A stretch of DNA of 64,000 bases from Firmicutes bacterium ASF500 (GTDB taxonomy: Bacteria > Bacillota > Clostridia > Oscillospirales > Oscillospiraceae), in assembly GCA_000492175.2 (NCBI GenBank), contig CP097573.1, positions 2,790,001-2,854,000 on the forward strand, read 5' to 3'. Numbering within the stretch: position 1 is the first letter of the stretch; each line of letters starts with the position of its first letter. A program made the position numbers and the translations under genes. Below the pieces are notes generated by a model that saw nothing but the letters and a program-made list of their open reading frames with translations, ran no database searches and had not been told where the DNA came from. Shown piece by piece: positions 13,830-46,225 of this stretch.

Positions 13830-13952
13830 AACCACGGGCTAAGCCCGTGGTTCCAAAAAGGCTATGCCTATGAGTAGAAATGATAAACCTCCAACGATAC
13901 AATAGGAGATGGTTTGCCGACCACATCTGAAAGTATCGAAGGAGGAATATCA

Positions 13953-23870: not shown

Positions 23871-23883
23871 CCATTTCGAGATT

Positions 23884-23920
23884 AAAAAACCTCGCCTATA
23901 TGATATAGGCGAGGTTTTTT
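23884..23920 (+). terminator. Bidirectional terminator between nrdG and the SLH protein gene
   Basis: 17-bp perfect stem (AAAAAACCTCGCCTATA and complement) with a TGA loop. A/T-runs on both sides fit convergent use. Confidence 0.9.
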
Positions 23921-23935
23921 AACGCTATTTTACCC

Positions 23936-26900: not shown

Positions 26901-27862
26901 AGATTGCCCGGGGAGCCGACCGAGACGGTCACCTCCGTTTTGCCGGGGGCCCTGGCATAGAGGATGCCCTCCCGGCCCTTGCTGTCGCTGCTGCTCGCCT
27001 CCACGACAGCTTCATCCTTGGACTCCCAGCTCACTACCGCGCTCTCAGGGTCGGCGGTGGCTTTGATATACTCATACTTCCCCACGTCCATGGTAAAGGG
27101 GCCGCTTTTGTCCAGTCTGAGGCCTTCGATCCTCTCCTCGACTTTGACATTACACTTGGCGGCCGCCGTTGTTCCGCCGCAGGACGCCGTCACCTCGATC
27201 TCTGTGCTGCCTGCGGAAACAGGCTTTACAGTAACTGTACCGCCAGTGCCGTCAACAGTGGCCACACTGGTGTTTTTGCTGGTCCAGGTGTAGGTTACAT
27301 CGCCAAGGTCATGCGTCCCGTTGTCGCTCCACGCCGGTTTTACTGTGGCGGTCAGTTTTTGAGATTCACCGGTAAACATGGACAGGGATGTTGGTTCAAG
27401 CGTAACGCTCAAGCCAGTCAGCGTAGGCGCGGCGCTGACCGTAACCGCACAGGCCGCAGAAACCGTTTTCTCCTCACCCGCCCGTGTGACGGAACTCGAA
27501 TCCCCGCTGCTGTCTCCGGAGTCCGGGGTCGTGTCGGGAACGGTATAGGTATAGGTCGCCGTGATATTGGCGGTGCCCGCCGCAACGGCGGTGACGGTCC
27601 CGTTGGCGACTGCGGCAATAGCTTCATTGTCGGATTTCCAGGTGACTGCCGGGTTCGGGACCGCCGTGCCGTTCTCCTTCACAGTCGCCGCTAAAGTTCC
27701 GGTCTCGCCCACTGTCAAGGCCAGCGTATCTGGGTCCAGCGTAATTTCTGGGACCTGCGCGCCCTCCGGCGGGTCCTCCGCCCAGACCGCCTGGCTCAGG
27801 CCCAGGCACAGCACGAGCGTGAGAAGCAGGGACAGCCACCGCCGCCCTAACGTCGTTTTCAT
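23936..27862 (-). CDS. Large secreted Ig-like/tandem-repeat protein with C-terminal SLH domains
   Basis: 1,308 residues. Signal peptide at 1-28 (ending QAVWAED). Four bacterial Ig-like (Big2) domains follow, to about residue 420, recognisable by TLDPDTLALTVGETGTL and VTWKSDNEAIAAVANGTVTA. Then come six tandem repeats of about 110-120 residues, each with a G-LYxxY segment, a LxxITFVPxxxFxG segment and a closing strand such as GTIEIEV. The C-terminus has three SLH domains (FTDLGGYSDQQRAAVSYIYD, WVFNDVPPNEYYAQAVNTLY, YSDAGYVSDYAKGAMALAVQ). SLH domains bind pyruvylated wall polymer, so this is likely an S-layer-associated surface protein. ATG 27862 is chosen (AAGGAG upstream) over GTG 27871. It lies downstream of another SLH giant on the same strand. 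Confidence 0.85.
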   Translation of the reverse strand: MKTTLGRRWLSLLLTLVLCLGLSQAVWAEDPPEGAQVPEITLDPDTLALTVGETGTLAATVKENGTAVPNPAVTWKSDNEAIAAVANGTVTAVAAGTANITATYTYTVPDTTPDSGDSSGDSSSVTRAGEEKTVSAACAVTVSAAPTLTGLSVTLEPTSLSMFTGESQKLTATVKPAWSDNGTHDLGDVTYTWTSKNTSVATVDGTGGTVTVKPVSAGSTEIEVTASCGGTTAAAKCNVKVEERIEGLRLDKSGPFTMDVGKYEYIKATADPESAVVSWESKDEAVVEASSSDSKGREGILYARAPGKTEVTVSVGSPGNLKTRTIQVEVSGLVLDERRLEVKENETAGLPKLTVYGAAKNGKVVWQSADPNVAQISGNSVAGRGPGTTTITASVSGSYQVSVTVTVSADKETTIGPLDMKVSDRLNFGDSLVEEIRDQASERKLSHVTGMFVSPSQGTLYYKYTSPDEPNAGVAQRENYYYAPSSGQKALGDITFVPNPQFSGTQAVISYTVVSTTNQTSSGRILINLEKDSKAVINLGTSNSTPVFFSGNLFNRQCQQKTGSTLDYVIFSLPPANKGTLYFGYVDANNYGGTVTAGAMYRLAQLDSIVFVPAEGVPRDGKSETVTVYYTARSMAGGSVSSYAGQVDINVTRENTGHGTDVYYSISKGATKTLDDTDFTDFYGDEVLSYIRFDSLPASREGVLYHGYRSASNVGTAVKTDTNYYSGTRNPRLDRITFVPAEDFTGSVYIPFTGWDQNGNRFPGTLEINVKGGGDGYGDILYSCAPGRTVNFAEKDFRELCDDLTDKTLSYIILQDLPDRSLEGSIYHKSTRVSSAGTRYNNGSGTYRISNLSFRAVSDFSGTVEIPFVGYTTGTSSTSTTFNGVIIIEATGGSYGDTTISYYTDYDSAAVFDRDDFDEISLNETGEKVKSVKFSIPTASRGDLYQNYRSSSSKGSKITSKNTSISASSLDRVAFIPASAYTGTVYIEYTATAQSDGGTFEGTIEIEVERPSAAVTVRYGTKADPVDFDAEDFRRSGYTLRSVKFTTLPTSSEGKLYYQYTSPSQYTRLASTSTSYNVSGSNKIADLTFVPRAGYTGTVVLPYTGTNSSGSTFSGEVIITVSPVIAHSFTDLGGYSDQQRAAVSYIYDRGITAGMSSTEYGPELPIRRGDFARMIYIAFGFSPSGGSWVFNDVPPNEYYAQAVNTLYARGVVSGVGNGDFSPSANVSRQDAICMIQRALRAVGQSAPDGAYSALSSYSDAGYVSDYAKGAMALAVQRGYLPTSGNYLKPGDPLTRIDMADILHRVLTY

Positions 27863-27901
27863 ACAAAACACTCCTTTTCAAAAAGGTTCCTAAAGGGCCC
27901 G

Positions 27902-27934: not shown

Positions 27935-30900
27935 TTAGGTAGTCTGCTGTTTTACGAATGGAGTTCCGTCGATCGTGACACTCTGATTTCCGAATGTGAC
28001 GGTCGCATAGGGGGTGTAGTTATCCTTAAACGCAGCATTTCCACTCGCGTCGCTTGGACGGTATCCAATGGTAACTTGAATTCTTCCCGCCGCCGGGATT
28101 GCGGATTCATTACAAATATCACCCTGATTCAGGAAGGTAATGGTATAGTTATTTTTGGGGAGAGAGGTAAAGCTGATTATAAACTCCCTTCCGCCGCCCG
28201 CAACTTTAAGTCCCCCTATGGCGCTAGGGAGAGGCTCATAAAGCATTCCAATCGTCCCATACCCGCCATCAGCCGGCGGGTCGTTTTTCTCCCCTCCACC
28301 TTCAACCTTATAGAGCTTCTCATCCTCCGGGTTTTCCCGCCAGAAAAGGTTTTTATCAAATTCCAGCCGAATAGTGCCGTTAATCCTTGTACCGTTATCA
28401 CTTGGAGTGATGATGGCTCCAACGCCTGTCACGTTGCCTTTGCTGTCCTCTTTCAGCTTCGGCGCTTCTCTGTCTGTTACCTTGATGTTGCTCAGGGCCC
28501 GGAAGCTGTCCACAGACGACCAGTCGTTGGACCCGGTGCTGCTGGCAGAGTTGTGGCCCACCACCAGGATAATAAATCGCGCCGCCGCTGCGGGGGGTTC
28601 CTTCATGTTTGCCTTTTGCAGCCACTCGGCGGTGCCCAGATAGGAAGACGCAGCCGTTGTAGTAGCATCTCCGTCACTGACCTTCGGCCGGCTTCCCGGG
28701 GTACGGACCAAGCGGTCCAGGGCGCTTCTCTGCGTGTCCGTGGCAAACAGATCGAACAGGCTGTAGCCGTTCTTGTCATTGCCAAATTTTGTGTCTTCGG
28801 GAATACCGGCTGTTCCGTAAGCCTTCTCCGCATCATACACGGTTGTCAGGGAGTCCAAAATAGATAGCGGCGAAGTGTAACCCTTTATATTTGTGTCGCT
28901 GATCCCAATCTTGCCGACATCTTCCTCTAACTCCTTCAGTTGGCTCTTTCCGTCGTCCTGTGAGAACACGATCCACTTCAAGTCGGAGGGCACGCTGTTT
29001 ACATTGGAGGTACCATAGCTGGTGTCAATATCCACTCTGCCGTTTCCATCCGACAATTTAATCCTGGGTTTGGAGCTCTCGTTGGTCGTAAACTGATAGG
29101 CCAGGACCTGGGACGGCTCATCAGACACGCCTTTCAGCACGAAATAGACGATGTACTTTGTCTTCGGCGTCAACTCGCGCAGGGGGATATCCAAAACCGC
29201 GCCGCCGCCGCCGTAGGATTTAATGCCGTGATTCCAAGAGGCGTAGGCGGTCTGATCCATAAGCTGCTGGGCGTTGGGGCTGGATATTTTAATATCCTTC
29301 CGATCTCCGGGAGCTGACTCATAGTAGTAGAGCTCCTCCACCGCGCCATCCTTTATCACATTCTGGCCCACAGCCGGGAGGTGGCCCCAGAGCGTTTCGC
29401 CGGTCTCTTCCGCATCTCCCACTCTGGCCCGGGTGGTAATCGCGCCCAGAGGGGCGGCCACATAGTAGACGGTACCCGCCCGGTCCAAGGTAACTTCGAT
29501 ATCGGCAAAGCTGTCACCGGCTGTAACCTTGGGAAATCCCTGGTCAAACTTGGGCACCCGGGTATCAATAAAGGTCTTCTCCAGGGTCAGGAATTTGTCT
29601 CCGCTGGTGGTCTGGCCGATGGAGACCAGTCCGCCGCCAGTCAGAGGAAGAGCCGTCAGTTCATCCCGCCGTTTTCCATAGGCATCGCTTGCAAGATTGT
29701 TCAGGATGTTAGGCGCACCGGCAAGGACATGGACCTGGAAGTCCACATCTCCGGTCCAGACGCCCCGTTCCTTCACACCGCCCTGCTCCGTCACCGTGAC
29801 CACAAAGTCGTAGGCATACTCCTGTTTCAGCTTATTCACAGCCGGGAAGTTGGGCAAGCTAGCCATGGTGTCCTTTCCGTTCACGGACACGCCCCGCAGT
29901 CCGGGATTATCCACCCCTTGTTTTTGAGCGATAGCCCCGGAGTTCCCCAGATAGAACCAGCCGTTGATATCCGCATTTGCGCTGGTTTCGCCGCCATCGA
30001 GTGCGGTAATACCGGCATTCGCCGCGTCCGCTGGGCTCTTGAGGTAGTCGGTCGTAGCACCGCCGTCGGCGCCCTTCTTGGCGATGCGGCAGTACAGGTC
30101 AAAGGCTACATTCGAACCGGTGTACAACTGCAAGTCATAGGAGTTGGCGGCATCCACGGTCGATGTGGAATCGGGGATCATTCGGAAAGTGTAGTCGATA
30201 ACGGCGTTCCCCTTGCTGGTATCGCTCTTGCCCACGCCGTTGGTATCGGGGCTGTCTTTTCTAATCACGGGTGTATTTGCAGCCAAAAGGGGAATGGAGA
30301 GATGTACCTGGGCGAACACGGTGGTAAATGTGGGGATGTTGTGATCTGTCCCCATGGTCTCATAGTCCACCGGATTCGGTACAATCGCGTTCTGCGCGTC
30401 GGAGTTATCTGTAATATTTGCGATCCTGAAGAAGTAGGTGGACCCGCTGCCCAGGCTGTGGGCGGACTTTGCCGCATCATCCCCATCGTAGGGGAGGGTG
30501 AGGAGCACCTTGCCGTTCTTCGAGGAAACAACAGCGTTTTTGAAGTTGATCCATGTGGCGCCAGGGGGGTCGCCAGTCCCAGACCAGTCCGCGATCTTGA
30601 TAGGCGTCGTGCTGGTGCTGGTCTGGTACAGGGTAATGCTCTTCTTTAAAAGGTCGGTAAGCTGCTCTCGGGCCTCCTGGCTCGTGGCCGGGTCCGTCGA
30701 GCCAACACCCGCATAGAGGTCAAGCAGGCTCTTTCCTCCGCCCGCGCCGGTGCTGGAGCGGATATCCTCGCTGAACTCCAGAATAATGTCGGTGGTCGCC
30801 AAGGGGTCGCGGGTGTTGTCCTTGCCGGCGTAGCGGCTGAAATACTGCCTGACTGTGGGCGGGGTGTTGTCCAGGGTGTTGATGGGGATCGTCTTCACCT

Positions 30901-33289
30901 CCGCGGTGAAATTGCCCGCGGCGTCCTGACCCACATAGTACAGGTCATAGGCGGTCTCCTTTGCCAGGCCGGTAATGTTCATCGGCACCTCGGTGCTGGC
31001 GTTGGCAATCCGCACCGAGCCCTTCTTGACAGCAAAACGGCCGCTTTTCACCTGACCCTTTGCGTAATCCTTCGTCAGGTCGGCGCGCAGAGTGCCGTCA
31101 GGACCCGTTATATTGTCGTCCTCCCGGCCCGTAGCCATGTTCGGCTTGGGATACGCCTCGCCTCTGGGCACGACGGCCCAGTAGACCGTCCCTGGCTCAT
31201 TCAGGCCGACGGTGAGGTTGACGTTGGTCTGTCCCACATCGGCCACGCTGGCCTCCGGGTCAAACTTAGGCGGGGTGGAGTCCACGGTCTTGAATCTCAG
31301 GGACTGGACGTTGGAGCTGTTGGCGCCGTCGGCGTCGCAGAGCCAGAGGTAGAGGACGTATTCCTTCAGCTCCTCCAGCTGGCGGCTGGCAATGAAGGTG
31401 AGCTCGGTGTTCTTGACCACGTCCAGCACGCCGTAGCCCAGGTTTCCGGTGACAGAGGCGGAGCGCAGCTCGTTGGTGGTGGGCGCGGGCGCTCCCTGGG
31501 GCAGGACGGCGTAGTAGAGCTTACAGCTCTTGGTGGGCATGACCACGGCCTGAGCCAGGGTGTCGGTGACCAGGGTCATCTTGGGGTAGCCCTGAGCGAA
31601 AGCGGGCTTGGTGTTGTCCGGCGTGGTAAAGGAGATTACCTTTACAGGGCTGCGCACCCCCCGGCGGTCGGCCATCACGGCGGACAGGTAGTAGGAACCC
31701 GACACAGTCAGCCCGGTAATCTGGGCGCTGGCCAGCGTCTCGGCGGTAGGCACGTCGATGGAGCCGTTCTTCACGGCGGAGGAGCCGTAGCTGGGCGGCT
31801 TAATCAGGTCGTCGGCGGAGACGGAGCCGTCGGTGATGTTGCTGACGGCCCAGTAGACGGTGCCCTTCTTATTGGTGGCGAAATCGGCCCGCAGGGAGGT
31901 GGGGGCGATGTCGCTGGCGATGGGGTAGCCCGAGAGAATCTTGGGGTCCCGGGAGTACTCCTCCGCGCCGGCGGAGTCCAGGTCCTCCCCGCCCACGTTG
32001 CCGGTGATGCCGGGACGGATGTACAGCTTCTCCGGCAGGACGGTGGAGGTGACGCCGGGGGCGTTGATGTTCATCTGCTTCACGTCGCCGTCGCCGGTGA
32101 CGCTGGAGGCCACGTCCAGGTTCAGCTCCTTGACCTCGGTGTTCCGGTTGATCTGAACGGTGGAGTTGGTGGCGGTCTCGTCCACGGTCAGCCGCTGGAC
32201 GGTGCCCTTAGCCACCTGAACGGTGGTCATGGGGGCCTGAGCGACGACCTCCTTCACCCGCCCGGCCAGGTCCAGACGGCAGCCGGAGCCGTCCACAGTA
32301 ATCAGGCGTAGGCCGTTCTCGGCGGGGGCGTTGTCCTCCAAATAGGCGTTGGTACGCACGGAGGTGCGGGCAATCTCGGTCAGGCCCTCCGCCCGGACGG
32401 TGACCGTCTTGTTCCGCATATTGTCCACCAGCATCTCCTGCGCGGTGACGTTGCGCAGGAGCACGCTGGCGTCGCCCTTCTCACTTTCACCGGTGCCGCT
32501 GACGATGATCCGGCCCAGCACGGTGACATTCTCCAGCTTTACGTCCCCCAGGCCCACACCGCCGGAGACGTAAAGGTCGCCGCTGATGGTAGTGTCCCGC
32601 AGGGTGACGTTGGAGCTGGTGATGGTGACGTTGTCAAACACATCCCCCAGGGCATACTCCCCCGGCTCGTTGATGGGGGTGCCCACGCACCGGGTCACCA
32701 GCACGGCCATCTCGCCCATGGAGACAAAGCTCTGGGGGCGGAAGCTGTTGTCGGGATAGCCGGAGAGAACATAGTTGTCCACTGCGGTCTTTACCAGGCC
32801 CCGGGCCCAGCTGCTGACCATCCAGCTGTCGGTGAAGGCCAGGCTCTCAGCGGGGCTGTCCTTCATCATCATGTTCCGGCCCAGGATGCAGGTAGCCATC
32901 TCCCGGGTCAGGTAGCCGTACGGGTCGGCGGTGGAGCTGGAGGTGCCCGCCATATAGCCTGCGGTGTAGGCGATGGAAATATCGTCATAGAACCACTCAG
33001 TCTGGGGCACATCGGTAAAGGGAATGGGGCCCAGCTCGCTATAGCCGTAGGCCCGGTTGATGATGGCCACAAACTGGGCCCGGTTGATGGGCTCGTCCGG
33101 GTTGCCGATCTGGTCGGCGCGCATAAAGCCCCAGTCCACCAGCTGGTTCAGGTACTCGTCGGCCCAGTGGGCGGCGGAGGCGGGCAGGACGGAGGCCGGG
33201 ACGATCCCGACGAGCAGGACCAGGGCCAAGAAGGCGGACAGCGCCCGCCTTGCCCAGCCGCGGCTCCGGTTTTCGGTACTGTGAGGCAT
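27935..33289 (-). CDS. Giant surface protein with N-terminal SLH domains
   Basis: 1,784 residues. Signal peptide to about 40 (ALSAFLALVLLVGIVPASVL then PASAAHWADE). Three SLH domains fill about 40-205 (second: FTDVPQTEWFYDDISIAY; third: FTDSWMVSSWARGLVKTAVD). Residues about 215-430 are a run of short V/T-rich strands (VTITSSNVTLRDTTISGDLY) like a right-handed beta-helix. The rest consists of Ig- or fibronectin-like modules marked by GTVYWAV and by DxTPPKFDP-type joints. The extreme C-terminus resembles a Big_5-like domain (INGTIRLEFDKNLFW). AAGGAG lies 7 nt before the ATG. Base composition of the C-terminal half (about 27935-30900) is visibly lower in GC. Likely S-layer or adhesin; exact role unknown. 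It follows the PilZ gene by 63 bp on the same strand. Confidence 0.85.
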   Translation of the reverse strand: MPHSTENRSRGWARRALSAFLALVLLVGIVPASVLPASAAHWADEYLNQLVDWGFMRADQIGNPDEPINRAQFVAIINRAYGYSELGPIPFTDVPQTEWFYDDISIAYTAGYMAGTSSSTADPYGYLTREMATCILGRNMMMKDSPAESLAFTDSWMVSSWARGLVKTAVDNYVLSGYPDNSFRPQSFVSMGEMAVLVTRCVGTPINEPGEYALGDVFDNVTITSSNVTLRDTTISGDLYVSGGVGLGDVKLENVTVLGRIIVSGTGESEKGDASVLLRNVTAQEMLVDNMRNKTVTVRAEGLTEIARTSVRTNAYLEDNAPAENGLRLITVDGSGCRLDLAGRVKEVVAQAPMTTVQVAKGTVQRLTVDETATNSTVQINRNTEVKELNLDVASSVTGDGDVKQMNINAPGVTSTVLPEKLYIRPGITGNVGGEDLDSAGAEEYSRDPKILSGYPIASDIAPTSLRADFATNKKGTVYWAVSNITDGSVSADDLIKPPSYGSSAVKNGSIDVPTAETLASAQITGLTVSGSYYLSAVMADRRGVRSPVKVISFTTPDNTKPAFAQGYPKMTLVTDTLAQAVVMPTKSCKLYYAVLPQGAPAPTTNELRSASVTGNLGYGVLDVVKNTELTFIASRQLEELKEYVLYLWLCDADGANSSNVQSLRFKTVDSTPPKFDPEASVADVGQTNVNLTVGLNEPGTVYWAVVPRGEAYPKPNMATGREDDNITGPDGTLRADLTKDYAKGQVKSGRFAVKKGSVRIANASTEVPMNITGLAKETAYDLYYVGQDAAGNFTAEVKTIPINTLDNTPPTVRQYFSRYAGKDNTRDPLATTDIILEFSEDIRSSTGAGGGKSLLDLYAGVGSTDPATSQEAREQLTDLLKKSITLYQTSTSTTPIKIADWSGTGDPPGATWINFKNAVVSSKNGKVLLTLPYDGDDAAKSAHSLGSGSTYFFRIANITDNSDAQNAIVPNPVDYETMGTDHNIPTFTTVFAQVHLSIPLLAANTPVIRKDSPDTNGVGKSDTSKGNAVIDYTFRMIPDSTSTVDAANSYDLQLYTGSNVAFDLYCRIAKKGADGGATTDYLKSPADAANAGITALDGGETSANADINGWFYLGNSGAIAQKQGVDNPGLRGVSVNGKDTMASLPNFPAVNKLKQEYAYDFVVTVTEQGGVKERGVWTGDVDFQVHVLAGAPNILNNLASDAYGKRRDELTALPLTGGGLVSIGQTTSGDKFLTLEKTFIDTRVPKFDQGFPKVTAGDSFADIEVTLDRAGTVYYVAAPLGAITTRARVGDAEETGETLWGHLPAVGQNVIKDGAVEELYYYESAPGDRKDIKISSPNAQQLMDQTAYASWNHGIKSYGGGGAVLDIPLRELTPKTKYIVYFVLKGVSDEPSQVLAYQFTTNESSKPRIKLSDGNGRVDIDTSYGTSNVNSVPSDLKWIVFSQDDGKSQLKELEEDVGKIGISDTNIKGYTSPLSILDSLTTVYDAEKAYGTAGIPEDTKFGNDKNGYSLFDLFATDTQRSALDRLVRTPGSRPKVSDGDATTTAASSYLGTAEWLQKANMKEPPAAAARFIILVVGHNSASSTGSNDWSSVDSFRALSNIKVTDREAPKLKEDSKGNVTGVGAIITPSDNGTRINGTIRLEFDKNLFWRENPEDEKLYKVEGGGEKNDPPADGGYGTIGMLYEPLPSAIGGLKVAGGGREFIISFTSLPKNNYTITFLNQGDICNESAIPAAGRIQVTIGYRPSDASGNAAFKDNYTPYATVTFGNQSVTIDGTPFVKQQTT

Positions 33290-33352
33290 ATGAGGTTCTC
33301 CTTTCTTTGCTTAAAGAGCGGCGCGGAGGAGCGCCCTCCGCGGGTCTTGCCG

Positions 33353-33937
33353 TCAGCCGGCGGTATTGATCTGGATGCTGAACACCGCTTTACGGATCAG
33401 GGCCTCCTCGTCGTGGATCAGGTCCACAAATTTAGAGGCATACAGGGGCAGCTTTGCCCCGTCGTTGGGCAGGGAGCGGAGGACCTGGGTCCGCACCACC
33501 AGGGGGGAGTCGGTGACGGGGAGGACCATCTCCACAATCTCCCGGTCCTCCAGCGGCACCTCGGAGTAGAAGGCGATGCCGCCGCAGCTCAGGTCCTTGG
33601 CCTTGATCCTCCGCTGGCCCCTCCAGCGGCCTGAGATCGGGTAGGCCACGCTGTTAAAGTCGGTGGGGATGCGCAGGTTTTCCCGAGCGGCGGGGCCCAG
33701 GGCGATGGTGGGCTGGACCACGATCTTGTCCTCCCGCTGGCGGACGATCACGCCCACCCGGTCAGGAGAGCCGTCGTCCACGCCGATCAGCTGGACCTCC
33801 CGGTGGGCCATGACCTGCTCCACCTTGCCGCCCAGCACCTGGAGCTGAAGGACCTCGGAGCTGGGCGGTGACTCCAGCACCGCGTTGGCCAGGGGCGTTC
33901 CCTTGCTGTCTAGGATCAAATAGAGCCGTTCTTCCAT
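33353..33937 (-). CDS. PilZ-domain protein with YcgR-like layout
   Basis: 194 residues. The C-terminal half is a PilZ domain with both cyclic-di-GMP-binding motifs: RENLR (RxxxR) and DLSCGG (DxSxxG). The N-terminal half (about 1-95) is a beta-rich segment like the YcgR-N/PilZN domain, with QVMAHREVQLIGVDD and the conserved arginine-bearing RVGVIVRQREDKIVVQP. YcgR-type proteins link cyclic-di-GMP to flagellar or surface functions. The gene follows the FlhB-like gene by 3 bp (AAAGGAG ahead of the ATG) and precedes the giant SLH gene. It may therefore couple second-messenger level to this cluster. The HD-GYP gene at 46226 is a potential partner. Confidence 0.85.
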   Translation of the reverse strand: MEERLYLILDSKGTPLANAVLESPPSSEVLQLQVLGGKVEQVMAHREVQLIGVDDGSPDRVGVIVRQREDKIVVQPTIALGPAARENLRIPTDFNSVAYPISGRWRGQRRIKAKDLSCGGIAFYSEVPLEDREIVEMVLPVTDSPLVVRTQVLRSLPNDGAKLPLYASKFVDLIHDEEALIRKAVFSIQINTAG

Positions 33938-33940
33938 ATA

Positions 33941-34303
33941 TTAGGACTCTCCTTTCTCTTCCTGGGGCTCGGGCTGCTGGGCGGCCTTCTCCGCCTGGGC
34001 GGCAAGGGCGGCCCGCTCCCGCCTGGCCTTGTCCGGGTCCTCCGGGTCAAAGTTCAGGAAGTATACATATATTTCCACAATGGCCTGATACAGCGCGTCG
34101 GGGATCTCCTGGCCCAGCGCCAGCTGGGACAGCATGGTGGCCAAGGAATTGTCCTCATAGATGGGCACGCCGCTCTCGGCGGCCACCTCCACCATGCGCT
34201 CAGCCAGGAAGCCCATTCCGGAGGCCACCACCACCGGCGCCCCCTCGCCCTCATATTTCAGGGCCACGGCCCGGTTGGTGGCTCGGTTATCATATTTTGA
34301 CAT
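33941..34303 (-). CDS. Stand-alone FlhB/EscU C-terminal-domain-like protein (FlhX type)
   Basis: 120 residues. The conserved FlhB cytoplasmic core is visible: NRAVALKYEGEGAPVVVASG, GVPIYEDNSLATML and IPDALYQAIVEIYVYF. The transmembrane part of FlhB is absent. The autocleavage motif NPTH, which normally stands just before AVALKY, is replaced by RATNR, so self-cleavage is not expected. ATG 34303 overlaps the end of the FliK-like gene by 14 nt and gives MSKYDNRATN. The longer open frame to 34324 has no better ribosome site. Free FlhB-C homologues (FlhX, YlqH) occur in flagellated bacteria and interact with export substrate switching. Linkage to a FliK-like gene fits that. The tail after about 95 is charged linker. 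Confidence 0.85.
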   Translation of the reverse strand: MSKYDNRATNRAVALKYEGEGAPVVVASGMGFLAERMVEVAAESGVPIYEDNSLATMLSQLALGQEIPDALYQAIVEIYVYFLNFDPEDPDKARRERAALAAQAEKAAQQPEPQEEKGES

Positions 34304-35729
34304 TGATGCTGTTCTCCCCCTCAAAGATCCGGGGAAATACCCCGGAGATGGTCAGCGGCCGGTCCATCTGCTGGACCTGGACCGCTCCGGCGGACAGGCC
34401 GTTGTCGGTCAGGATGCGGGTCAGCTCCCCCTGGACGGTCTGGGTGAAGGGAGCCACCTTTTCCGGACAGAAGACCTGGATGTCCACCTGCTCCCCCTGG
34501 CAGGTGAGCACCATGTCGAAAAAGCCCAGATTCTGAATGTCGATCTTGAACAAGAAGCGCAGGGTGTTGGGCCGGTCCTTCCGGCCCCGCTTCAAATTCT
34601 CCTCGGTGTCCGGGTCCACCCACATCTCGGAGAACACCATCTTTCCGTCCCACTCCAGGGGGAGGAGGATGTGGTTCAGCGGCATGTGGACGCTCTCGTT
34701 CACCAGGAAGGCGGCGACAATGTTGCGGAAGGCCTCCTGGACCTCGCTCCCCGCCCCCCCCTGGAGGGCCTTGTGGGCCGCCTGGGTCAGCTGGGCGGCA
34801 AACTGGTCCCCCTCGGCGGCCTTGGAGAAGCTGGTGCTGTCCAGCAGCCGGAGCAGGGCCTCGTCGCTCAGCCCGCCCAGCTTCTCCCGCAGGCCGGGGC
34901 TGCTGTTGAGCTGGTGGAAGGCCTGGAGCAGGCTCTCCTCCCCCCCGTTCTCATACCGGGAGATATCCAGCGCCAGCATGGAGATCAGCGTCCGGGACAG
35001 GCCCATGTCGTTGGTCTTACTGGTATAAGACGACAAAAAGGGCAGAATGGTTCCCTGGAGCAGCTTCAGCGCCCCCGCCCGGTCTCCGGCGGTCAGCTTC
35101 CCCTCCAGCTGGGACACCATGGGAAGCAGCTGACTGCCATAGCTGGCGGGGATAGCCCGGGTCAGCTTGGTCAGCGTCCGCAGCAGGTTGGTCTGGAGGT
35201 GGGGGGTGGAGGAATAGTCCCCGTATTTCTTCAAAAACTGGAGGATATTATTCCGCACCGCCTCGGAGTTGCTGGAGCTGTACGCCTCCCGGAGGAGGTT
35301 GAACAGCGCCCCGCCGAAGCGGGTGCCGTTGGCCAGCTGAGACAGGAGGAACTTGCCCAGCTGGCTCTCGTCCATCTTCAGCATATTGAGCAGGGCGCCC
35401 ATCTCGGCGGCCAGGCCCTCCTCAATACCGGAGGAGACCACCTTGCCCTCGATCAGGGCGAAGAGGGTGGCCAGGCTGTTCCCCATCTCCGGGGTGTTCA
35501 TCAGCCGCTGGAGGAAGGCTCCGAAGTTGGAGTCATAGCGCAGCGCCTGACTGCCCGTGGAGGCGTCGCCGGTATCCTGGCGCTCCGACCGGTTGTCCGG
35601 CCGGCTCACCCGGCTGGGGTCGGGAGCGTTCTGAATCCGGGGATCGTTGGGAGAAACCGGCATATTCCGGTTTACATTGTTGCTGTCATGACCCGGTACG
35701 GGGTTGGTCACACCAAGCAGGTCTGGCAT
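34290..35729 (-). CDS. FliK-like hook-length-control-domain protein
   Basis: 479 residues. The first about 65 are polar and low-complexity; about 70-330 is a helical region without a recognised domain (AEMGALLNMLKMDESQLGKF, SLLQAFHQLNSSPGLREKLG). Residues about 370-479 resemble the FliK C-terminal domain (Flg_hook): LRFLFKIDIQNLGFFDMVLT, VDIQVFCPEK, LTRILTDNGLSAGAVQVQQ. ATG 35729 is chosen since GGAG stands 8 nt upstream; a GTG at 35738 overlaps that site. FliK C-terminal domains signal to FlhB to change export specificity, so coupling to the FlhB-like gene is meaningful. Whether it serves a flagellum or another export function is not known. Confidence 0.72.
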   Translation of the reverse strand: MPDLLGVTNPVPGHDSNNVNRNMPVSPNDPRIQNAPDPSRVSRPDNRSERQDTGDASTGSQALRYDSNFGAFLQRLMNTPEMGNSLATLFALIEGKVVSSGIEEGLAAEMGALLNMLKMDESQLGKFLLSQLANGTRFGGALFNLLREAYSSSNSEAVRNNILQFLKKYGDYSSTPHLQTNLLRTLTKLTRAIPASYGSQLLPMVSQLEGKLTAGDRAGALKLLQGTILPFLSSYTSKTNDMGLSRTLISMLALDISRYENGGEESLLQAFHQLNSSPGLREKLGGLSDEALLRLLDSTSFSKAAEGDQFAAQLTQAAHKALQGGAGSEVQEAFRNIVAAFLVNESVHMPLNHILLPLEWDGKMVFSEMWVDPDTEENLKRGRKDRPNTLRFLFKIDIQNLGFFDMVLTCQGEQVDIQVFCPEKVAPFTQTVQGELTRILTDNGLSAGAVQVQQMDRPLTISGVFPRIFEGENSINVKI

Positions 35730-35787
35730 TGGCGACACTCCATTTCAGTAAAACTTCTTTTTTTTTCTGGAAATCTTAATTTTCTAA

Positions 35788-35793
35788 TTGACA
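35788..35793 (+). promoter_or_regulatory. Candidate -35 of the cheA operon
   Basis: Consensus TTGACA. A clear -10 at 17-bp spacing is missing; the best is GATTAT at 35813-35818 (19-bp spacing) in an AT-rich stretch. Start near 35825 would give a leader of about 65 nt. Confidence 0.4.
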
Positions 35794-35855
35794 CAGCCGA
35801 TATAACGAGTATGATTATAAACAGGCGGTGTACTATGCCCTCCCGAGGGCAGGAA

Positions 35856-35883
35856 CCACCTCCAACCAAATGAGAAAAGGTGG
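35856..35883 (+). promoter_or_regulatory. Possible hairpin covering the cheA ribosome binding site
   Basis: CCACCT (35856-35861) can pair with AGGTGG (35878-35883), the only Shine-Dalgarno-like sequence before the cheA ATG. The same CACC could alternatively pair with GGTG at 35827-35830, around a stable GCCCTC-CC-GAGGGC hairpin (35837-35850). The two folds exclude each other. Confidence 0.35.
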
Positions 35884-35890
35884 CGTTTTT

Positions 35891-37993
35891 ATGGGCGACA
35901 GCATCCTGGATATGTACCTGTATGAGACCAATACCCTGTTGGAGCAGCTGGATGGCATTCTTCTGGCGGCAGAACAAGCGGATACGTTTTCTGAGGACAG
36001 CGTCAATGAGATATTCCGGATCATGCATACCATCAAGGGTTCCTCCGCTATGATGGAGTTCAGTTCCCTGATGACAGTGGCGCACCGGATTGAGGATTTG
36101 TTCTTCCTGATCCGCGAGAAGAGTATGGACGTGGTGCCGGAGCAAAACCGGCCCGAGCTGTTCGATATGCTGTTCCAGGCCGTGGACTTTTTCCGCGGTG
36201 AAATTGAAAAGGTTGAAAATGAACAACCTCTCTCTCAGTCTATCGACCACATCGTAAATAAAATTAATAGCCTGATCGATAAAATTCAGGGCAATCCCGG
36301 CGCTCCCAGCGAGGACGACGCCCCCGCCTCCGGCGGCGCGGCCGCCCCGGAGGAGGCCCCCTCCGCCCCGGCCGTGAACGTGCTCAGCGAGGAGTATCTC
36401 TTCGGCGTCCACGTCTACTTTGACGAGGGCAGCGGAATGGAAAATCTGCGGGCCTTTATGCTCATCAACGGCGTGAAGGACTACTGCGGCGACTTCCTCT
36501 ACTACCCCGATAACGTGGAGACCGACCCGGCTACCTCCGACATCATCGCCGACCAGGGCTTCCTGGTCTGGTTCCGCACCGCCGAGGACCGGGACGCGGC
36601 CATCCCCGCGGTGAAGAATGCCGGCTCCGTCCGGGAGTATCAGCCGGTGGACGCCTCCAAGCCCGCCGCCCCCGCTCCCAAGGAGGACGGCGCCCAGGAG
36701 GAGAAGCCCTCCCAGGCCTCCGCTCCCGCCGCCCCCGCCCCCAAGGCGGAGGCCCCCGCGGCCAAGCCCTCCGCCGCCCCCGCCCCCGGCGGCGGGCAGC
36801 AGCACGCCAAGGAGAGCCTGATCAGCGTCAACCTGTCCAAGTTGGACCAGCTGATGGCTGTGGTCAGCGAGATCGTCATCACCGAGTCCATGGTCACCTC
36901 CTCCCCCGACCTGAAGGGGCTGCGGCTGGATAACTTTACCAAGTCCGCCCGCGACCTGCGCAAGCTCACCGACGACCTTCAGGACGTGTCCATGTCTCTG
37001 CGCATGGTCCCTGTGTCCGGCACCTTCCAGAAGATGAACCGCATCGTCCGGGACATGAGCAAGAAGCTGGGCAAGCGGGCCAAGCTCACCCTCATCGGCG
37101 AGGACACCGAGGTGGATAAGACAATCGTGGACTCCATCGGCGACCCCATCATGCACATTGTCCGCAACTCCATGGACCACGGCCTGGAGGAGCACGAGGC
37201 CGACCGTGTCGCCGCCGGCAAGGACCCGGTGGGCGAGGTGACCCTCTCCGCCCGGCACACCGGCAGCGAGGTCATCATTGAGATCAAGGACGACGGCCAG
37301 GGCGTGGACACCCAGGCCGTGCTGAACAAGGCCATCCGCCAGGGCCTGGCCGACCCCGGCCACGACTACAGTCAGAAGGAAATTCTCAACTTCCTGATGA
37401 TGCCCGGCTTCTCCACCAACACCGAGGTCACCGAATACTCCGGCAGAGGGGTTGGCATGGACGTGGTGAAGAAGAACGTGGCCGATGTGGGCGGCACCGT
37501 GTCCATCTCCAGCGAGTGGGGCCAGGGCATGACCACCACCCTGAAAATCCCCCTGACCATGGCCATCATGGACGGCATGGAGGTCAGCGTGGGCGAGTCC
37601 ATGTTCACCATCCCCATCAACAGCATCTGCTCCTCCATGAAGGTCACTGAGAAGGAGGTCATCCACGACCCCGCTCAGGGCGAGATGGTCAAGATCCGGG
37701 ACAACTTCTATCCCATCATCCGGGCCAAGGAGCTGTTCTGCATGGAGCAGGGCCACGACAACATTGAGGACGGCATCCTCATGTGGGTGGAGTCGGGCGA
37801 GCACTCCTACTGCCTGTTCGTGGATGAGCTCATCGGCGAGCACCAGATCGTGGTGAAGCCCCTGCCCAACTATGTCAACAGCTTCGGCGTAAAGAACTAT
37901 GGCATCACCGGGTGCAGCATTCTGGGCGACGGAAGCATCAGCATCATTCTGGACGTGCTCAACGTCTACACCGCCACCCACAGCACCTTTTGA
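35891..37993 (+). CDS. cheA: Chemotaxis histidine kinase CheA
   Basis: 700 residues. HPt domain at the N-terminus with H46 in IMHTIKGSSAMM. An Ala/Pro linker, a P2-like domain (YLFGVHVYFDEGSGMENLRA) and a second long Ala/Pro linker follow. Next come the dimerisation helices (ISVNLSKLDQLMAVVSEIVI), HATPase with HIVRNSMDHGLE, DDGQGVD and GRGVGMDVV, and a C-terminal CheW-like domain. ATG 35891 starts MGDSILDMYLYETNTLLEQL; upstream in-frame codons lack support. It heads a cheA-cheW-cheR-cheB-channel run. No receptor, CheY or CheC/D gene is present within the window. The operon diverges from the FliK-like gene. Confidence 0.97.
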   Translation: MGDSILDMYLYETNTLLEQLDGILLAAEQADTFSEDSVNEIFRIMHTIKGSSAMMEFSSLMTVAHRIEDLFFLIREKSMDVVPEQNRPELFDMLFQAVDFFRGEIEKVENEQPLSQSIDHIVNKINSLIDKIQGNPGAPSEDDAPASGGAAAPEEAPSAPAVNVLSEEYLFGVHVYFDEGSGMENLRAFMLINGVKDYCGDFLYYPDNVETDPATSDIIADQGFLVWFRTAEDRDAAIPAVKNAGSVREYQPVDASKPAAPAPKEDGAQEEKPSQASAPAAPAPKAEAPAAKPSAAPAPGGGQQHAKESLISVNLSKLDQLMAVVSEIVITESMVTSSPDLKGLRLDNFTKSARDLRKLTDDLQDVSMSLRMVPVSGTFQKMNRIVRDMSKKLGKRAKLTLIGEDTEVDKTIVDSIGDPIMHIVRNSMDHGLEEHEADRVAAGKDPVGEVTLSARHTGSEVIIEIKDDGQGVDTQAVLNKAIRQGLADPGHDYSQKEILNFLMMPGFSTNTEVTEYSGRGVGMDVVKKNVADVGGTVSISSEWGQGMTTTLKIPLTMAIMDGMEVSVGESMFTIPINSICSSMKVTEKEVIHDPAQGEMVKIRDNFYPIIRAKELFCMEQGHDNIEDGILMWVESGEHSYCLFVDELIGEHQIVVKPLPNYVNSFGVKNYGITGCSILGDGSISIILDVLNVYTATHSTF

Positions 37994-38028
37994 CCGGGAG
38001 CGGGACTTTAAAGAAGGGAGAACTTACT

Positions 38029-38508
38029 ATGCAGCAAACTGACGAAGGCTTGTTCGCCACCGAAGACCAGATGGACGACTACACCGAGCAGGTCCCTGAA
38101 ATACAGACGGAAAAATACCTGATTTTCTCCTCCGACGGCCTGATGTACGGCATCAAGGCCGAGCAGGTCAAGGATATCATCACCGATTACGCCATCACCT
38201 ATGTCCCCCATGTGCCCAACTATGTCAAGGGCGTGATCAACCTCCGGGGGCAGATCATCCCCATGGTGGATATCCGCCTGCGCCTGGGCAAGCTGCCCAA
38301 GGACAACTTCTGCGGCATCGTGGTGGACGTGGACGGCAACATGGTGGGCATTCTGGTGGACATGGTGGAGCAGATGGTGGACGTGCCCCTGGACGCCATC
38401 CTGCCCGTCCCCACCAGCAAGGGTCAGGCCATGGTCTCCGGCATGTGGACCCTGCCCGACGGCAACACCATGCTGGAGCTGGACTCCGAGCTGCTGCTCC
38501 ATGAATAA
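38029..38508 (+). CDS. cheW: Chemotaxis coupling protein CheW
   Basis: 159 residues. The CheW beta-barrel is evident from KYLIFSSDGLMYGIKAEQVK, NYVKGVINLRGQIIPMVDIR and the IVVDVDGNMVGILVD strand pair. It couples CheA to membrane receptors. ATG 38029 has GGGAG 8 nt upstream. It follows cheA by 35 bp and precedes cheR by 29 bp. The first about 25 residues are an acidic extension without a role I can name. Confidence 0.95.
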   Translation: MQQTDEGLFATEDQMDDYTEQVPEIQTEKYLIFSSDGLMYGIKAEQVKDIITDYAITYVPHVPNYVKGVINLRGQIIPMVDIRLRLGKLPKDNFCGIVVDVDGNMVGILVDMVEQMVDVPLDAILPVPTSKGQAMVSGMWTLPDGNTMLELDSELLLHE

Positions 38509-38537
38509 GAAATTACCCCGCAAGGAGGTAGACCTGG

Positions 38538-39341
38538 ATGATACAATCCATCTCTGATAAGGATTTTCAGCGGCTGGTACAGTTTATCAAGAGCAAATAC
38601 GGCATCACCCTATCTGAAAAGCGGCAGTTGGTTACCAGCCGCCTGTCCTCTCTGCTCTCCGAGGAGGGTTACACCAACTTTTCCGATTTTGTCACCAATC
38701 TTCTGGAGGAGCAGAACCCCCAGAAGATCGAAAAGGTGCTCAACCGCCTGACCACCAACTACACCTTCTTCATGCGGGAGACCGAGCACTTCGACTTCTT
38801 TACCCGGGTCATCCTCCCCGACCTGGTGCGCAAGCACCAGAGCCGGAAAACCATGGCTATCTGGAGCGCCGGCTGCTCCAGCGGCGAGGAGCCCTACAAC
38901 CTGTCCATGTACATCAAGGACTATCTGGGGTCTCAGGCCCGGTTCTGGGACACCCGTATCCTGGCTACCGATATCTCCCAGAAGGCGCTGGCCAACGCGA
39001 AAAAGGGGATCTATGAGCTCCCCGACACCCTGCCCCCCGCCTGGCGGAAGAAGTACTTCACCCGCGTGGAGGGCACCCGCTACGCCGTCAGCAAGGAAAT
39101 CCGGGACAACGTGATTTTCCAGACCTTCAACCTTATGGACCCCATCAAATTCCGTGTGAAGTTCGACGTGATTTTCTGCCGGAATGTCATGATCTATTTC
39201 GATCAGCCCACCAAGGACGCCCTGGTCCGCCGGTTTTACGATGCCACTGTCCCCGGAGGGTATCTGATGATCAGCCACTCGGAAAACCTGAGCAAGGACG
39301 CCCCTTACCGGACGGTGGCCCCTTCCACGTTCCAAAAGTAA
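38538..39341 (+). CDS. cheR: Chemotaxis protein methyltransferase CheR
   Basis: 267 residues. An N-terminal helical CheR_N region is followed by the SAM-binding fold with WSAGCSSGEEPYNLSMYI, ILATDISQKALANAKKGIY and FDVIFCRNVMIYFDQPTK, all family signatures. It methylates glutamates on chemoreceptors using SAM. AGGAGG lies upstream. The substrate receptors are not encoded in this window. Confidence 0.96.
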   Translation: MIQSISDKDFQRLVQFIKSKYGITLSEKRQLVTSRLSSLLSEEGYTNFSDFVTNLLEEQNPQKIEKVLNRLTTNYTFFMRETEHFDFFTRVILPDLVRKHQSRKTMAIWSAGCSSGEEPYNLSMYIKDYLGSQARFWDTRILATDISQKALANAKKGIYELPDTLPPAWRKKYFTRVEGTRYAVSKEIRDNVIFQTFNLMDPIKFRVKFDVIFCRNVMIYFDQPTKDALVRRFYDATVPGGYLMISHSENLSKDAPYRTVAPSTFQK

Positions 39342-39408
39342 CCCTCTGTCCCGGCCCGGTCCGCGGGTCGGGACAGAGCATAACTGCTAGGCAAAGGAGA
39401 GATGGCTT

Positions 39409-40527
39409 ATGCCTATGTTTCCATCTACTCAGAAAATACGCGTGCTGGTGGTGGACGACTCCGTCCTCGCCCGCACCATGATCACCCAGGGCCTGTCCAA
39501 AAACAGCCGGATCGACGTGGTCGGGACCGCCTTCAACGCCCAGGACGCCCGGACCAAGATTGACCGGCTCAAGCCGGACGTAATGACGTTGGACGTGGAG
39601 ATGCCCGGCATGAACGGCATCGACTTTTTAAAGCAGCTCCTGCCTGTCGTGCCCCTGCCGGTGATCCTGGTCTCCTCCCTGAATCTGCGGGTGTTTGACG
39701 CCCTGTCCGCCGGCGCGGTGGACTTTGTCCGCAAGCCGGAGCCCGGCCAGAACGACGCCTTCATTCAGAACCTGACCCAGAAGGTGCTCACCACCGCCGG
39801 GGCCAAGGTCCGCACCCGGCCGGGCGGCCCGCTTCTGTCCACGCCCCCCCTGGCCGCCGCCCCCACGATTCCAAAGCCCGGCGCGCCCCGGCCCATCATT
39901 GGGAGCGGCCCCTCCTCCCCTCCCCCCCCGCTTCTGGGCAATCACCCCTCCATGGATAATGTAATTATCGGACTGGGGGCCTCCACCGGAGGGACGGAGG
40001 CCACCCTGGAGGTCATGCGCCGCCTGCCCGCCGACATTCCGGGTATGCTCATCGTACAGCACATGCCCGTCGGCTTCACCCAGATGTACGCCGACCGCCT
40101 CAACCGCCTGTGCCACATGGAGGTGCGGGAGGCCAAGAACGGCGACGAGATCCACCGCGGCTTGGCCCTTCTGGCCCCCGCCGACTTCCAGATGCGGGTG
40201 GTCCGCTCCGGTACCCGGTATACCGTCACCTGTCAGCCCGGGGAGAAGGTCAGCGGCCACCGCCCCTCCGTGGACGCCCTGTTCTTCTCCATGGCGGAGC
40301 AGGTCAAGTGCAAGATGGCCGGCATCATCATGACCGGCATGGGCCGGGACGGAGCCGATGGCCTGTTGAAGATGCGCCAGGGCGGAGCCTACACCATCGG
40401 CCAGGACAAGGAGTCCTCGGTGGTCTACGGCATGCCCATGGTGGCCTATAACATCGGCGCCGTCCAGACCCAGGGCTCCTGCGAGGACATCGCCGGCATC
40501 CTCCTGCGCCAGCTTCAGAAGTGGTGA
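39409..40527 (+). CDS. cheB: Chemotaxis methylesterase/deamidase CheB
   Basis: 372 residues. The receiver domain (1-130) has D16/D17 and phosphoacceptor D62 in MTLDVEMPGMNG. A Pro-rich linker (SGPSSPPPPLLGN) leads to the methylesterase domain. The catalytic triad residues lie in GASTGGTEA (Ser), VQHMPVGFT (His) and GMGRDGADG (Asp). It removes receptor methyl groups and opposes CheR. Only 1 bp separates its stop from the next gene's ATG. Confidence 0.97.
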   Translation: MPMFPSTQKIRVLVVDDSVLARTMITQGLSKNSRIDVVGTAFNAQDARTKIDRLKPDVMTLDVEMPGMNGIDFLKQLLPVVPLPVILVSSLNLRVFDALSAGAVDFVRKPEPGQNDAFIQNLTQKVLTTAGAKVRTRPGGPLLSTPPLAAAPTIPKPGAPRPIIGSGPSSPPPPLLGNHPSMDNVIIGLGASTGGTEATLEVMRRLPADIPGMLIVQHMPVGFTQMYADRLNRLCHMEVREAKNGDEIHRGLALLAPADFQMRVVRSGTRYTVTCQPGEKVSGHRPSVDALFFSMAEQVKCKMAGIIMTGMGRDGADGLLKMRQGGAYTIGQDKESSVVYGMPMVAYNIGAVQTQGSCEDIAGILLRQLQKW

Positions 40528-40528
40528 G

Positions 40529-41734
40529 ATGAACAGCACCTGGTACCGCCGGAAAAAGCGGCTGTCTGAGATCATTGAGGTGGGCTACATCGACGACCCC
40601 ATCAGCCGTCTGTATGACATCATCAACGCGCTGGCTATTGTGGTCAACCTGACTGCCAGTATCCTATACACCTTCGCGGAGGTCCGCGCCCCGTGCGGCC
40701 CTCCGCTTCTGACGGTGGAGGCTGTCACGGTGGCCTTTTTTGCCGTGGACTACTGTCTGCGGCTCTGGACCGCTCCCGTGCTGGCCCCCAAGCTGTCCGG
40801 GAGCAGGGCAGTGTGGAAATACGCCGCCTCTTTCAGCGGGCTGGTGGACCTGCTGTCCTTCCTGCCCTACTATCTGCCCGTCTTTCTGCCCGCTGGGGCG
40901 GTGGCTTTCCGGATGTTCCGGGTGGTGCGCATCTTCCGGCTCTTCCGGATCAACGCCTACTACGACTCCCTCAACGTCATCACCCAGGTCATCGCCAGCA
41001 AGCGGCAGCAGCTGCTCTCCTCGGTGTTTATCCTCCTGGTGCTGATGCTGGCCTCCAGCCTGTGCATGTACAGCCTGGAGCACGAGGCCCAGCCGGAGGT
41101 GTTTACCAACGCCTTCTCCGGCATCTGGTGGTCGGTGTCCACCTTGCTCACCGTGGGCTATGGGGACATCTACCCCATCACCAACTTGGGCAAGCTGTTT
41201 GGCATTGTCATCTCCTTCCTCGGGGTGGGCATGGTGGCCATCCCCACCGGTATCATCTCCGCCGGCTTCGTGGACCAGTACTCCCGGATCAAGCGCATCA
41301 GCGAGTACGGCCATGAGGCGGATGTCCACTTCATCAAGGTCCTCCTGTCCCAAAACGACCGGTGGTCGGGCAAAACCATCCAGTCTCTGGGCCTGCCCTC
41401 GGGCATCATCGTGGCAGCTATTCAACGGAAGAGCCGCATCGTGGTCCCCCGGGGCAATGTGGAGCTGCTCCCTGGAGACACCCTGGTTCTGGGCGCGGAG
41501 TCGGTGGGGGACGACAGGCACATCGACCTGAAAGAGGTGGTCCTGCGCCGCCAGAACCCCTGGAACGGCCAGGCCGTCCGGGACTTGGACATCTCCCGCC
41601 AGACCTTCATCGTCATGGTCCGGCGCAAGGGCAAGATTCTCATCCCCAACGGCGATCTGGTCCTGCTGGAGGGGGACAGCGTGATTCTCTACACCCAGTC
41701 CCACATTCGGGAGGCCAACAGCATTGAGATATAA
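40529..41734 (+). CDS. Voltage-gated K+-channel-like protein with TrkA-C domains
   Basis: 401 residues. A six-helix Ion_trans domain contains an S4-like arginine ladder (FRMFRVVRIFRLFRI) and a pore helix with the selectivity filter TVGYGD, which is diagnostic for potassium selectivity. After S6 there are two RCK_C/TrkA-C-type domains (QSLGLPSGIIVAAIQRKSRI and VRDLDISRQTFIVMVRRKGK). These domains often bind ligands such as cyclic dinucleotides or nucleotides. The gene starts 1 bp after cheB, so it is coupled to the chemotaxis operon. That linkage is unusual and suggests membrane potential or K+ flux in the same behaviour. Confidence 0.9.
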   Translation: MNSTWYRRKKRLSEIIEVGYIDDPISRLYDIINALAIVVNLTASILYTFAEVRAPCGPPLLTVEAVTVAFFAVDYCLRLWTAPVLAPKLSGSRAVWKYAASFSGLVDLLSFLPYYLPVFLPAGAVAFRMFRVVRIFRLFRINAYYDSLNVITQVIASKRQQLLSSVFILLVLMLASSLCMYSLEHEAQPEVFTNAFSGIWWSVSTLLTVGYGDIYPITNLGKLFGIVISFLGVGMVAIPTGIISAGFVDQYSRIKRISEYGHEADVHFIKVLLSQNDRWSGKTIQSLGLPSGIIVAAIQRKSRIVVPRGNVELLPGDTLVLGAESVGDDRHIDLKEVVLRRQNPWNGQAVRDLDISRQTFIVMVRRKGKILIPNGDLVLLEGDSVILYTQSHIREANSIEI

Positions 41735-43575: not shown

Positions 43576-43676
43576 GTACGCTGGTATAAGTATTGACAGT
43601 TATTCTTCAGAGCCGTTCCGTTGAACGGTCTGGCCCGGCAAGCGGACCGGGTCGGGATACAGAGGTGAATATATCT

Positions 43677-46220: not shown

Positions 46221-46225
46221 CGATC

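Follow-up and report, generated by a model that had tools for sequence, protein, structure and literature searches.

Short FlhB-like proteins are known from FlhX (HP1575 type), and a flhX-fliK locus is present in Nitratiruptor (PMC9321776). Large surface proteins encoded with flagellar genes also have a precedent in CmoA of Paenibacillus sp. NAIST15-1, a large extracellular protein with Ig-like domains whose gene lies with fliD-fliS and which is required for movement on hard agar (PMC5072692). Here we describe a gene block within 64,000 nucleotides of Firmicutes bacterium ASF500 (C1:2790001-2854000 of the single-contig 3.67-Mb genome; hereafter the window), in which a FliK-like protein (FliKl), a short FlhB, a PilZ-domain protein and two giant SLH-domain proteins (SLHa and SLHb) are encoded on the minus strand, divergently from cheA, cheW, cheR and cheB (cheAWRB). 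We consider it likely that the block is a displaced piece of one flagellar and chemotaxis regulon, carrying an accessory pair of FliKl and FlhX-like protein together with flagellum-linked, variable SLH rods. The FlhX-like, Che and PilZ parts are of known kinds, and the noteworthy part is the flagellum-linked SLH pair with its variable outer ends.

The window block and the flagellar operon

An earlier interpretation of this stretch, made from the letters alone (the sequence-only reading), had suggested an export or surface system of its own and had proposed looking elsewhere in the genome for a full flagellar operon with a second flhB and fliK. Such an operon, with its own FlhB and FliK, was found at about 2.94-2.97 Mb, about 110 kb from the window block. 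Its order is flgM/N/K/L, fliW, flgB/C, fliE-fliK, flgD/E, motAB, fliM/Y, cheY, fliOPQR, flhB, flhA, sigD, flgF/G, cheC, cheD, cheV, with all names, including cheY, cheC, cheD and cheV, assigned by eye from the translations; no cheA, cheW, cheR or cheB was seen in the operon by the same means. The CheA encoded in the window is the only CheA-type kinase genome-wide and has a complete domain set (Hpt, P2, dimer, HATPase and CheW, corresponding to P1, P2, P3, P4 and P5), and CheW, CheR and CheB are also present by Pfam, for which matches of window proteins were listed at E<=1 and bit scores compared with the family cut-offs. The cheAWRB locus and the flagellar operon complement each other. The former would thus provide the only chemotaxis core, serving about 12 chemoreceptors and acting with CheY, CheC, CheD and CheV from the flagellar operon. 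It had been noted that the window holds no receptor, CheY or structural flagellar gene; this was borne out for receptors, as all 12 MCPsignal matches of the genome lie outside the window, and CheY was found in the flagellar operon.

The features of the block are as follows.

34290..35729, minus strand: FliK-like protein (FliKl), 479 amino acids (aa) from a conserved Met, with a helical middle, a C-terminal alpha/beta switch-like domain and a sub-threshold Flg_hook match
33941..34303, minus strand: short FlhB C-terminal homologue (FlhX-like), 120 aa, with no NPTH and no membrane part; PF01312 at 67.4 bits
33353..33937, minus strand: PilZ-domain protein with RxxxR and DxSxxG motifs and a PilZ Pfam match
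27935..33289, minus strand: SLHa, 1784 aa, with signal-peptide-like N-terminus, N-terminal SLH domains, ChiW-matching module, fibronectin-like stretch and hypervariable C-terminal part
23936..27871, minus strand: SLHb, 1311 aa, with signal-peptide-like N-terminus, Big_2 domains, tandem repeats (by eye) and C-terminal SLH domains
23882..23922, no strand assigned: terminator-like hairpin of 19 pairs, 3' of SLHb, the proposed end of the minus-strand unit
35776..35815, plus strand: predicted SigD-like promoter TTAA-N16-GCCGATA overlapping a sigma-A-like TTGACA-N16-TATGAT (11/12), upstream of cheA
35891..37993, plus strand: CheA, the only H-kinase_dim (CheA-type) match in the genome; start judged by eye
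38029..38508, plus strand: CheW (Pfam); start from a 159-aa orthologue
38538..39341, plus strand: CheR (Pfam)
39409..40527, plus strand: CheB (Pfam)
40529..41734, plus strand: ion channel with Ion_trans and two TrkA_C stretches (Pfam)

All genes named in the sequence-only reading are intact open reading frames (ORFs) carrying the expected domains. Both SLH giants that it placed within 27935..41734 are real, though the second (23936-27871) lies outside that interval. The true starts are probably later than those of the longest ORFs, at about 35729 for FliKl (conserved Met, reducing a 482-aa ORF to 479 aa), 34303 for the short FlhB (120-aa homologues), 38029 for cheW and about 35891 for cheA (by eye). 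The ion channel gene adjoins cheB here and in the closest relative (G445/L103) and is not a member of the conserved block.

In 9 of 13 mapped relatives (G078, G068, G030, G053, G005, G080, G056, G034 and G089) flagellar genes border the block on at least one side, and in a further genome, G400, on both. The commonest linked order is the flgB operon, then SLHb, SLHa, PilZ, short FlhB and FliKl, followed by divergent cheAWRB and flgMNKL-fliW. Conservation was counted in the best 80 of 149 homologous loci, with loci with enough flank as denominators: the short FlhB and PilZ genes were each found in 78/78, SLHa in 73/75, SLHb in 69/72, CheA in 57/59 and CheB in 55/57. FlgM/N/K were near in 28/52, so that a block apart from flgM is not unique to this genome. 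Some of the genomes and loci appear to be the same records (such as G445/L103), and the sets are therefore not independent. Misassembly as the cause of the block's placement was rejected, since the local gene order recurs in G445 between flanks of its own, among them nrdD/nrdG and asnS.

Gene adjacency in the window is what speaks for an independent export or surface system using FliK/FlhB-like parts for the SLH proteins. We find such a system hardly credible, because the genome encodes one FlhA and one full-length FlhB (C1:2965839) beside the short one, with a full flagellar operon elsewhere and its only CheA in the block. Furthermore, the FliK/FlhB-like genes, which had been thought to stand apart from other flagellar genes, adjoin them in the relatives above, an arrangement that the sequence-only reading itself had named as telling against it. 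The N-termini of SLHa and SLHb were also read by eye as Sec signal peptides, so that export control by FliK/FlhB is not needed for them. In contrast, the association of the SLH giants with the FliK-like, FlhB-like, PilZ and che genes proved real and conserved, and tracks flagella. Given this, the proposed coupling of motility and cyclic-di-GMP (c-di-GMP) to a surface structure is reasonable, although not as a separate export machine.

The short FlhB, its FliK-like neighbour and predicted control of the block

The short FlhB matches PF01312 solely over positions 259-334, with 67.4 bits (cut-off 24.4) and the membrane part absent, and FlhB C-terminal domains in the PDB down to 2.7e-10. TIGR00789 (flhB_rel) is its best-scoring model, yet at 78.7 bits lies below the curated 117.35, and we therefore name the gene FlhX-like and not FlhX. 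The absence of NPTH, already noticed from the sequence, was confirmed by alignment in 24/24 short copies, whereas NPTH or NPDH is present in 26/26 full-length rows shown (duplicates L062 and L063 left out, the G050 short copy not in the set, and no row obtained for full-length L049). Short copies occur in 23/28 FlhA genomes of a 120-genome sample. By its sequence the protein is FlhX-like, and as such a known kind of flagellar part.

FliKl is probably a divergent FliK, as suggested by its predicted C-terminal domain (residues about 355-457 of the 482-aa ORF), for which the top two Foldseek matches were PscP (5cuk) and FliK (2rrl), below strong significance. The full model gave helical-bundle matches and not FliK in VIA-align, and FliKl profiles against PDB sequences returned only matches taken as chance. 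With Flg_hook at 13.6 bits against a cut-off of 29.8, FliKl does not qualify as FliK by sequence and the earlier label has weak backing at that level; Flg_hook matches 4/15 members at E<=1 (best E 0.013).

Since the short FlhB resembles the cleaved FlhB C-terminal domain without NPTH, and FliKl is probably a divergent FliK, the two may together assist the only flagellar export gate as an accessory pair that tunes or backs up its substrate switch. It is rather doubtful that this pair, and not FliK and FlhB of the main operon, gives export a second specificity, directed for example at an alternative hook or filament or at some different type III substrate. The short FlhB lies beside FliKl in all 78 loci with enough flank, is found in most of the sampled FlhA genomes and is accompanied by a protein whose C-terminal domain has the PscP and FliK switch domains as best folds, all of which would suit such a role; the single FlhA and single full-length FlhB of this genome do not, and such an FlhB fragment reportedly has a 'spare part' role, going by the title of Wand 2006. 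We favor the accessory pair. FliKl and the FlhX-like gene offer a clear genetic target for asking why many bacteria keep a short second FlhB. B. subtilis has a ylqG-ylqH pair. Among the matches listed in the open-access literature there was no functional study of a FliK-like/FlhB-like pair or of YlqG/YlqH.

The FliKl and short FlhB genes overlap and the following minus-strand gaps are 3, 63 and 63 bp. Because of these short gaps and the 19-pair terminator-like hairpin 3' of SLHb, a single unit of five genes (FliKl, short FlhB, PilZ, SLHa and SLHb) is plausible; terminator-like sites as a class are not enriched in the window (14 found against 13.6 expected from shuffles). On the plus strand, the predicted SigD-like promoter before cheA, based on what we take to be the SigD consensus, is supported by conservation across homologous intergenic regions: GCCGATA was found in 55/75 on the cheA strand and in 0/75 on the opposite strand, after 5 of the 80 loci had been left out for lack of a usable cheA. 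At 35776-35815 the SigD-like promoter overlaps a near-consensus sigma-A-like one, and this predicted overlap suggests dual control of cheA.

The PilZ protein scores 28.8 bits against a cut-off of 22.5, and 78/79 orthologues carry both RxxxR and [D/N]xSxxG; RxxxR and DxSxxG are c-di-GMP-binding motifs. With regard to a YcgR-type N-terminal domain, Pfam at E<=1 lists PilZ alone and leaves the first 84 residues unassigned. From its motifs the protein is predicted to bind c-di-GMP, and it would probably brake or redirect motility. A second PilZ-like protein (by eye) is encoded beside flgM in the flagellar operon (L011:592-1203; C1:2940591-2941202), and G068 and G030 have a further PilZ-like ORF between SLHb and flgB. 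At 43593-48105 of the window, just past asnS, lie genes for a hybrid sensor kinase (weak dCache match), an HD-domain response regulator (HD-GYP-like motifs by eye) and an Hpt protein, possibly forming a phosphorelay to c-di-GMP breakdown near the PilZ gene. The hybrid kinase and HD regulator are common to the closest relative, yet stand outside the conserved block.

The SLH giants and their link to flagella

The SLH domains exceed the cut-off of 20.8 bits in both giants (84.4 in SLHb and 56.9 in SLHa). They are N-terminal in SLHa, ahead of a ChiW-matching module (5gzt) and a stretch resembling fibronectin, whereas in SLHb the Big_2 domains come first and the SLH domains last. Compared with G445, in which neighbour genes are 95-100% identical, SLHb is 90% and SLHa 76.5% identical. 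The difference in SLHa is uneven: residues 1-700 are 98% identical with a synonymous divergence (dS) of about 0.12-0.15, residues 1001-1400 are 60% identical with a dS of 1.2, and residues 1401-1784 are 43.5% identical with dS not computable. Six further close pairs were compared; from 72 loci, equal-length pairs with FliKl identities of 90-99.7% were ranked and the six highest taken, and three of the six pairs share members. Identity in the last segment is 26-36% in five of the six, against 91-99% for residues 211-700; in the sixth, L159/L174, the last segment is 72% identical, while L159/L165 and L165/L174 are at 32-33%. Overall, the last segment is 26-44% identical in 6/7 close pairs. So abrupt a rise in dS suggests that alleles were replaced and did not diverge by point mutation alone, though sequences this divergent are difficult to align with certainty. 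For SLHb it is the N-terminus that varies, again the end remote from the SLH anchor (identities of 77% and 55%, compared with 97% at the anchor, in the two valid pairs); nine pairs were tried, of which five had no SLHb ORF and two, L169/L175 and L143/L152, were dropped because SLHa was picked on one side. Both giants have their constant part near the anchor and their variable part far from it.

To follow SLHa across 400 family genomes, 720 residues of its non-SLH part were used as query with matches accepted at E<=1e-20. This part was found in 49 genomes and FlhA over cut-off in 86 (two sub-threshold matches not counted); 45 genomes carry both, 4 SLHa alone and 41 FlhA alone (Fisher p about 1e-30, which ignores relatedness). 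Thus, SLHa occurs in only 4/314 genomes without FlhA. These four are 78-84% complete; G056 has flgB-fliM beside SLHa, G371 has cheA, FliKl and the short FlhB, and G311 has PilZ-SLHa-SLHb at a contig end. In the genus of 64 genomes, SLHa and FlhA are each present in 34, of which 33 are shared, the exceptions being G415 (79% complete) and G413 (72%), and among 31 near-complete genus genomes the same 17 carry both. In the genome studied here SLHa is kept though it lies about 149 kb from flhA. SLHb was rejected as a flagellum marker, since SLHb-type repeats are found in 27/120 genomes, 10 of them without an FlhA match (one, G056, has other flagellar genes).

We suggest that SLHa and SLHb would be Sec-exported, wall-anchored surface rods made by flagellated cells, which most likely influence how motile cells contact surfaces or one another, in a CmoA-like manner, and which are probably under diversifying pressure from phage, host or neighbours. 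More tentatively, and with considerable doubt, SLHa (with SLHb) could represent a new class of flagellum-dedicated wall-anchored giants in Oscillospiraceae, with a constant anchor and stalk and tip alleles swapped by recombination, which motile cells would deploy together with their flagella as a changeable coat or as a layer contacting phage or host, controlled by chemotaxis and c-di-GMP. Flagellar operons are viewed as self-contained machines, and here a conserved wall-anchored giant pair sits inside the block in many gut Oscillospiraceae; if true, the hypervariable outer part of the SLH proteins would couple motility with variation of the cell surface in an abundant, little-studied group. 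No report of SLH or S-layer protein linkage with flagella in this group was among the matches listed in the open-access literature, and PMC10284905 bears on another phylum.

An improbable alternative is that SLHa and/or SLHb are accessory parts for envelope passage of the flagellum, serving, fixed to the wall outside the peptidoglycan, as a bushing, collar or stator anchor. The wall anchor, the repeated domains, the place beside the flagellar operon and the flagellum-linked distribution of SLHa would fit this, but the anchor-distal part is hypervariable, unlike a machine part, and some flagellated relatives have no SLH pair.

Several observations weigh against a single flagellar regulon with flagellum-linked rods. 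With regard to gene order, the stretches fetched for G071, G029, G086 and G106 (4/13), and likewise those for G403, G426, G432 and G445, showed no flagellar gene next to the block. FliKl aligns with FliK in hhalign at a probability of 0.5-0.7% only (E 0.08-0.12), though in register. The promoter scan found no sigma-70-like promoter for the minus-strand unit, and both 63-bp gaps contain GC-rich inverted repeats (by eye), which leaves a joint transcript of FliKl and the SLH genes a tentative proposal. A single match to the SigD-like pattern occurs in the 64-kb window, close to the 0.5 expected in mononucleotide shuffles, and no match across the 60-kb flagellar stretch of the genome. Loci L134 and L138 have neither SLH gene; between PilZ and flgB, L138 (Pygmaiobacter massiliensis) instead has a flagellin gene on the other strand, and L134 has fliD, a fliS-like gene and others (all by eye). 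As 41/86 FlhA genomes are likewise without SLHa, the SLH pair is dispensable for the flagellum. FlhA-negative G343 has SLHb-SLHa-PilZ, yet the roughly 11 kb past PilZ hold no FlhX, FliKl, che or flagellar match. The SLHa of G132 is distant (36% identical), and the 35 kb fetched there contain no gene of a flagellar operon. Moreover, physical linkage and shared ancestry inflate the co-occurrence of SLHa and FlhA.

It is accordingly possible, though on balance unlikely, that the giants are general surface or S-layer proteins merely beside flagellar genes, with linkage and joint loss being historical and no function shared. Besides the two loci without the SLH pair, the SLHa of G343 and the SLHb-type repeats in FlhA-negative genomes, this would agree with weak SLHa matches elsewhere, which indicate that SLH proteins are common in these genomes, and with the fact that one deletion could remove all genes where they are adjacent. 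On the other hand, the non-SLH part of SLHa is nearly confined to FlhA genomes, the four exceptions are all incomplete, two of them (G056 and G371) retain flagellar or block genes, and the genome studied here keeps SLHa far from flhA. We therefore retain flagellum-linked SLH rods in a displaced piece of one regulon as the likely reading.

Elsewhere in the window, DDE transposase and IS200-type transposase genes lie side by side in a lower-GC stretch at 12595-14438, and a WG-repeat protein with a signal-peptide-like start (9302-10675) adjoins a 568-aa ORF (10762-12468) without a Pfam match.

Comparison with known systems

The short FlhB shares with FlhX and TIGR00789 (PMC9321776) that it consists of the cytoplasmic C-terminal domain of FlhB alone, that a full-length FlhB is also present and that it is paired with a fliK-type gene. 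It differs in being linked to PilZ, the SLH giants and cheAWRB and in scoring below the TIGR00789 curated cut-off. FliKl resembles the FliK/PscP switch domain in its predicted C-terminal domain, for which 5cuk and 2rrl led the Foldseek matches, whereas it differs in its missing sequence-level membership, in the long helical part before the domain and in the presence of a separate FliK in the same genome.

The chemotaxis genes agree with known flagellar sets (cheA, cheW, cheR and cheB with cheC, cheD, cheV and cheY) in their complete domain set, the single CheA and the SigD-like promoter before cheA, but are split over two loci about 110 kb apart. Like the SLH-anchored surface proteins Sap and ChiW (chitinase, 5gzt), SLHa and SLHb have an SLH anchor, followed in SLHa by the ChiW-matching module; they differ in that no enzyme domain is in their Pfam lists and in their flagellar context.

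CmoA (PMC5072692) is similarly large, signal-peptide-bearing and extracellular, has repeated Ig-like domains and is encoded with flagellar genes. It has vWFA and IPT/TIG domains, neither of which is in the SLHa or SLHb Pfam lists at E<=1, and these instead combine SLH anchors with Big_2 or Fn3-like domains and vary in their distal part. By analogy, and not as a claimed homologue, CmoA is the nearest functional precedent for SLHa and SLHb.

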